Source of the DNA: Aequorivita echinoideorum
GTDB lineage: Bacteria; Bacteroidota; Bacteroidia; Flavobacteriales; Flavobacteriaceae
NCBI RefSeq assembly: GCF_018476645.1
Contig: NZ_JAHCTB010000003.1
Span: 434,001 to 498,000, forward strand
Length of the DNA stretch: 64,000 bases
Reading direction: 5' to 3'
Made by a program: the position numbers and the translations under genes. Below, one piece after another: positions 60,974-61,911 of this stretch. The notes under the pieces were generated by a model, which was not told the origin of the DNA, did not search any database, and was given only the letters and a program-made list of their open reading frames with translations. Within the stretch, counting starts at the first letter, position 1. Each line of letters starts with the position of its first letter.

Positions 60974-61911
60974 ATGAAATATATTCTATCATTTCTACTA
61001 CTTTGCTTCGGAATTACAACCGCTCAAAAAGGAAATTTTAATTCCGAAGACCTAAAAATTACGCCACTTATAGATGGAACGCTCATAATTCCCGAACAAC
61101 CGGCAAAAATGCCCTTAGCAATCATTATTGGCGGAAGTGGCCCCACAGACAGGAACGGTAACCAGATGATGATGGTCAACAATTCCCTTAAATTTCTGGC
61201 CGAAGGTCTTTATGCCGAAAACATTGCTTCTTTTAGATACGATAAGCGCATCGTTAAACAAATGAAAAGCAATAGTTTGAATGAAGAAAATATAGATTTT
61301 TCACAATTTATTGCTGATGCCGAAGCAGTGATTTCGTATTTAAAAAAGACAACAGATTTTCAAAAATTTACATCATAGGCCATAGTCAAGGTTCACTCGT
61401 TGGGATGGTTGCCGCACAAAAAGGTGCTGATGGATTTATTTCCATAGCCGGAGCCGGTCAAGAAATTGATGACGTTATTGTAGATCAAATTGAAAAACAA
61501 TCACCTGGGTTGAAAGAAAATGCGCGTCAGGCTTTTGATGATTTGCGCGTTAACGGTTTCACGGAAAGCTATAATCCACTTATAGCTTCTATTTTTCGAA
61601 AGTCACTACAACCGTTTCTATTTACTTGGATCCAATACAATCCTCAAGAGGAAATAAAAAAACTGAAAATTCCTGTACTCATTTTAAATGGTGATCAGGA
61701 TATTCAAGTGCAAGTTTCTGAGGCAGAAAAATTAAAGGCCGCAAAGCCAGATGCAGAATATAAAATCATTGAAAATATGAATCATATTTTTAAAGAAATA
61801 AAAAATGATGAAAATAATCTGGAAAACAGCAAATCCTACAATCAGTTTGATCTTCCGGTTATGCCTGAATTGATCGAGACTATCAGTAATTTTATCAAAA
61901 AGCATAATTGA
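60974..61911 (+). CDS. secreted alpha/beta hydrolase, split by a -1 frameshift
   Basis: A predicted exported hydrolase. The first part (60974-61378) has a signal peptide ending GITTAQ and the oxyanion block IIIGGSGPTDRNGNQ. It ends at a TAG (61376-61378). The remainder is in the -1 frame: the nucleophile elbow GHSQGS, the acid in NGDQDIQV and the histidine in ENMNHIFKE. Reading AAG at 61346-61348 and slipping back one base joins the halves into one 312-residue protein (125 + 187). The junction is the heptamer A AAA AAG in the correct phase. It could be programmed frameshifting, a one-base loss in a poly-A run, or a sequencing error. If not rescued, this is a pseudogene. Confidence 0.75.
61342..61348 (+). 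other. slippery heptamer A AAA AAG
   Basis: Codons TTA AAA AAG of the zero frame; a -1 slip gives GAC AAC AGA, the frame of the downstream half. It is the same sequence as the E. coli dnaX slippery site. No strong downstream hairpin was seen within 40 bases. Confidence 0.6.

Follow-up and report, generated by a model that had tools for sequence, protein, structure and literature searches.

An EstD-like hydrolase gene of Aequorivita echinoideorum, probably split by a one-base frameshift beside a slippery heptamer

THE SPLIT GENE

The window, by which we mean the whole stretch of 64,000 nucleotides that was analysed, comes from the genome of Aequorivita echinoideorum (G000 where a label is needed). 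An alpha/beta hydrolase is split at positions 60974-61911 of its + strand, as read from the letters and the translated frames:

60974..61378, + strand: N-terminal hydrolase piece; zero frame, 134 aa, without the catalytic serine
61318..61911, + strand: C-terminal hydrolase piece; -1 frame open, GHSQG at 61378-61392
61340..61342, + strand: TTA (Leu) codon; a Phe codon in 25/25 congeners and the most economical site for a one-base loss
61342..61348, + strand: A_AAA_AAG heptamer; in -1 slippery phase here, in phase at this site in 0/25 congeners

The zero frame opens with ATG at 60974, passes through TTA (61340-42), AAA (61343-45), AAG (61346-48) and ACA (61349-51), and ends at the TAG of 61376-61378; the run of six A occupies 61342-61347. 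The -1 frame, translated from GAC at 61348, reads DNRFSKIYIIGHSQGS and then the remainder of the protein, to a TGA at 61909-61911. Its nucleophile serine codon is 61384-61386, and its first ATG, GTG or TTG is the ATG at 61405, past that codon; from 61318 to the serine codon all three are absent. Reading through the break gives a product of 312 aa, and no second frame break was found in the remainder of the hydrolase gene. By eye, the 134-aa piece appears to begin with a signal peptide.

This arrangement had been described in a sequence-only reading, and its description of the letters holds: the zero frame of TTA AAA AAG ACA followed by a stop, the -1 frame from GAC carrying GHSQG and the rest of a hydrolase, and the heptamer in exactly the -1 slippery phase. 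That the short product would lack the catalytic serine is also right, and the first start codon of the -1 frame lies beyond the serine as well.

FAMILY ASSIGNMENT

The read-through protein passes Pfam PF12146 (Hydrolase_4) with 42.7 bits against a gathering cut-off of 27, and its residues 18-311 match the NCBIfam profile NF041096 (esterase EstD) with E 1.3e-37. These matches and the GHSQG nucleophile motif are what it shares with the alpha/beta hydrolases; it differs from EstD proper in scoring 129.9 bits, far under the curated cut-off of 600, and in leaving the first 130 profile positions unmatched. Among solved structures it matches cinnamoyl esterases (best E 3.8e-08). Taken separately, the zero-frame piece aligns with NF041096 positions 131-241 and the part that starts at ATG 61405 with positions 262-420; as these stretches follow one another in a single profile, the two pieces are one gene split in two. 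No intact second copy was found in this genome, where the other match at E<=0.001 was weak (E 7.8e-4).

ORTHOLOGUES AND THE BREAK SITE

The genus search covered 28 genomes, our own included. An orthologue is present in 25 of the 27 congeners. Identity is 66-73%, and all 25 are single-frame, with products of 307-309 aa when read to the stop. The other two genomes gave a weak match alone: G017, 69% complete (E 2.8e-4), and G018, which is 99% complete and has no orthologue (E 6.0e-5). Because so complete a genome as G018 does without it, the hydrolase seems dispensable and its loss tolerated in the genus. Larger regions were fetched for 20 of the 25 orthologue-bearing congeners. The downstream neighbour, presumably a DUF819-like gene, is kept in 20/20 of these, and the two upstream neighbours, which we take to be nuclease and DoxX-like genes, in 18/20; with the neighbours conserved, the congener loci are orthologues in place.

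A longer hydrolase, with an open frame of about 580-630 aa, occurs in six congeners (at locus L030 and at comparable places in G002, G005, G008, G011 and G026); two stretches of it resemble the hydrolase studied here, with about 30-36% identity. Among the matches listed, none to this longer protein comes from G000.

At the break, the codon aligned with the window's TTA is Phe in 25/25 congeners (TTT in 16, TTC in 9), followed by a K or R codon and then by a K or N codon, so that the departure from the relatives begins one codon before the A run. Eleven of the 25 read TTY AAA AAA G here, 14 lack an uninterrupted AAA AAA, and an in-phase A_AAA_AAG is found at the site in none; congener L008 does carry an in-phase heptamer at another place in the gene, with the frame intact.

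Outside this set we compared 75 further loci, 48 from one search and 27 from a family-wide search, of which 74 are distinct (L031 repeats congener L024, with an identical gene sequence over codons 40-299). They are the best matches returned, not drawn at random, and one-piece matches are favoured by both searches. All 75 cross the site in one frame, and none of the 74 distinct loci is split; in L127 the frame does meet a stop, but not before alignment position 306 of 308, where the gene naturally ends. The residue at the site is Phe in 61 of the 74, Leu in 10 and something else in 3. In the family-wide draw 150 of 299 genomes matched at E<=1e-40, and among the family matches listed only G000 was split over two frames; that of G067 was cut by a contig end.

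ORIGIN OF THE BREAK

We give a probability of about 0.92 to the following reading, taken as a whole: the locus would be an ordinary, apparently secreted EstD-like esterase gene, disrupted by a single one-base frameshift that is unique to G000 among the genomes compared. Most likely the lesion itself produced the slippery sequence as a by-product.

The cheapest history, judging by the aligned codons, would be that the Phe codon beside the six-A run lost one base. The run itself would be unchanged by this; its phase alone would have moved, making A_AAA_AAG slippery. Loss in the Phe codon is preferred because losing an A or G also needs a Phe-to-Leu change. The sequence-only reading had allowed for a one-base deletion within the six-A run; a deletion is supported, and the relatives suggest moving it to the codon before. 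It had also taken seven A as the mark of an intact allele, which after a loss in the Phe codon an intact allele need not show.

Two observations count against a plain lesion. One is the exact -1 phase. Across 264 kb of this genome, made up of the window plus another 200 kb from its contig, one-base deletions were simulated in the 207 ORFs that reach 100 aa or more; 3821 of 214503 (1.8%) left an in-phase A_AAA_AAG in the usable overlap, as did 293 of the 10627 deletions (2.8%) that fell in runs of five or more. At a gene and position picked at random the exact phase is thus uncommon, a random deletion giving it in about 2-3%. The coincidence is partly built in here, since 11/25 congeners read TTY AAA AAA G, and losing a base from the TTY codon of that sequence would produce the slippery phase unaided. 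The other observation is the good conservation of both halves, to be expected of a functional recoded gene as well.

AGE OF THE BREAK

Three comparisons that bear on relaxed selection (invariant columns, codon positions and relative rates) gave nothing clear either way. In the N part, G000 keeps 36 of 38 columns that are invariant among the congeners, the second lowest of 26, one of its two losses being the TTA codon itself; in the C part it keeps 59 of 64, the lowest of 26, the next being L025 with 64 of 69. These losses could hint at slight decay or merely at a long branch. For G000, the mean protein distance to 20 congeners, relative to the mean of the others, comes to 1.16 for the N part and 1.35 for the C part, compared with 1.25-1.55 for four neighbouring genes. 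Third codon positions hold a share of 0.604 of the differences between G000 and its congeners in the C part (0.677 among congeners) and 0.546 in the N part (0.578 among congeners); the distances behind these shares are unmatched, and either slight relaxation or a longer branch would account for them.

As the hydrolase has diverged much as its neighbours have and no decay is visible, the lesion would be young or an error. The third option, a break tolerated through full-length protein that is still made, appears unlikely from the comparison with relatives. Within the one-base-frameshift reading we lean towards a real recent mutation.

A POSSIBLE SEQUENCING OR ASSEMBLY ERROR

The same one-base frameshift could also have arisen in the data, with the gene itself intact and the sequencing or assembly at fault. 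We consider this possible and clearly the less probable of the two origins. It would account for a single lesion adjoining a homopolymer with both halves conserved, and it agrees with the expectation in PMC3711429 that frameshifts validated by BLASTp and occurring as singletons are sequencing errors and not indel mutations. The gene resembles the GeneTack singleton frameshift genes and pseudogenes described there in being confined to a single genome, with validation from homologues and no conservation at the site; it differs in that an in-phase A_AAA_AAG happens to be present.

Against an error stands the fact that other split genes were not seen in a limited screen of 264 kb (the 64 kb window and 200 kb of contig). 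More of them would be expected in an indel-prone assembly. The screen gave 67 ORF pairs, the hydrolase included. Four were translated, namely one small pair and the three whose ATG lies over 300 bases beyond the upstream stop; by eye they encode different proteins. It is an insensitive screen, individual inspection having covered those four pairs of the 67, so the failure to find a further split gene is a weak argument against an indel-prone assembly.

POSSIBLE RECODING AT THE HEPTAMER

Barring such an error, the allele would be null or near-null. It should be inactive save for slippage, because the 134-aa piece and a restart at ATG 61405 both miss the serine. Internal restart or translational coupling at an ATG, GTG or TTG could not give active enzyme, there being none of these in the -1 frame before the serine codon.

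Slippage might relieve this in part: spontaneous -1 slippage at the heptamer would then yield some full-length esterase, at a guess perhaps a few per cent. We think such a partial rescue improbable. If the gene were rescued in this way, its loss could be slowed and programmed frameshifting could start from such a locus, which would then be a snapshot of a recoding site in the making.

Much less probable still is programmed -1 ribosomal frameshifting, newly gained at A_AAA_AAG, with a 134-aa fragment and a 312-aa enzyme as its products. The sequence-only reading had left this standing beside an indel; the indel is upheld, while the programmed shift is rejected by conservation, structure and heptamer counts. 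In its favour are the heptamer, in exact -1 phase before the zero-frame stop, and the conservation of both halves, the frame being unbroken elsewhere out to both ends of the gene. Recoding as such could occur in this group, since PMC8710568 reports programmed +1 frameshifting in prfB of Bacteroidia (523 of 726). Heptamer and phase are also the likeness to -1 frameshifting in dnaX and transposases, which are named with A_AAA_AAG in PMC3711429. Here, unlike there, the site is unconserved, stimulators were not found and the truncated product has no active serine.

Conservation speaks most directly. The earlier reading had named, as evidence against a programmed shift, relatives whose single frame is intact and which have no heptamer; once aligned, all 25 orthologues (of 27 congeners) are single-frame and have no in-phase heptamer at the site. 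Programmed frameshift genes in PMC3711429, as given in its Table 1, form clusters of five or more homologues with a conserved site; among the loci compared here, 0/25 congeners and 0/74 further loci are split. A distant relative, L032 (an Altibacter MAG, 63% identical, match 2001-2921), reads TTA AAA AAG GAC in phase and stays in one frame.

No stimulatory element was detected. Four stretches following or surrounding the heptamer were folded as RNA, without pseudoknots, and compared with shuffles; z was 0.10, -0.30, -0.30 and 1.02, so no downstream structure goes beyond the shuffles. AGGA, GGAG and GAGG were looked for in the 30 bases before the heptamer and none was found. A scan for Shine-Dalgarno patterns gave 325 matches against 317 expected, with the matches listed ending before the heptamer site.

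That the heptamer is not avoided in this genome also counts against a programmed site. In-phase A_AAA_AAG occurs 35 times (this site included) in the 207 ORFs, spread over 30 of them, against 28.1 expected from codon shuffles (sd 4.6), and is neither avoided nor rare here. PMC9307594 similarly counts A AAA AAG in 68 E. coli genes, with spontaneous frameshifting in vivo as low as 10^-4 to 10^-5. The window has four other in-phase heptamers, and the ORFs stay open past them; one of the four lies at codon 3 of a stop-to-stop stretch, perhaps before the start.

Reversible phase variation through a change in tract length is the least credible alternative, since the tract, six A beside two T, is short and the 14/25 congeners without an uninterrupted AAA AAA argue that no tract is maintained.

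A one-base disruption, the reading that we prefer, carries a caution for the annotation of recoding sites. A perfectly phased slippery heptamer can result from an indel next to a run of A that encodes lysine, and in an AT-rich genome the phase of a heptamer alone is weak evidence of recoding. Among the titles and abstract openings found in the literature, none dealt with a frameshift in this gene. The Altibacter locus, in which the heptamer lies in phase within an unbroken frame, offers a natural control on whether slippage follows from the heptamer by itself.
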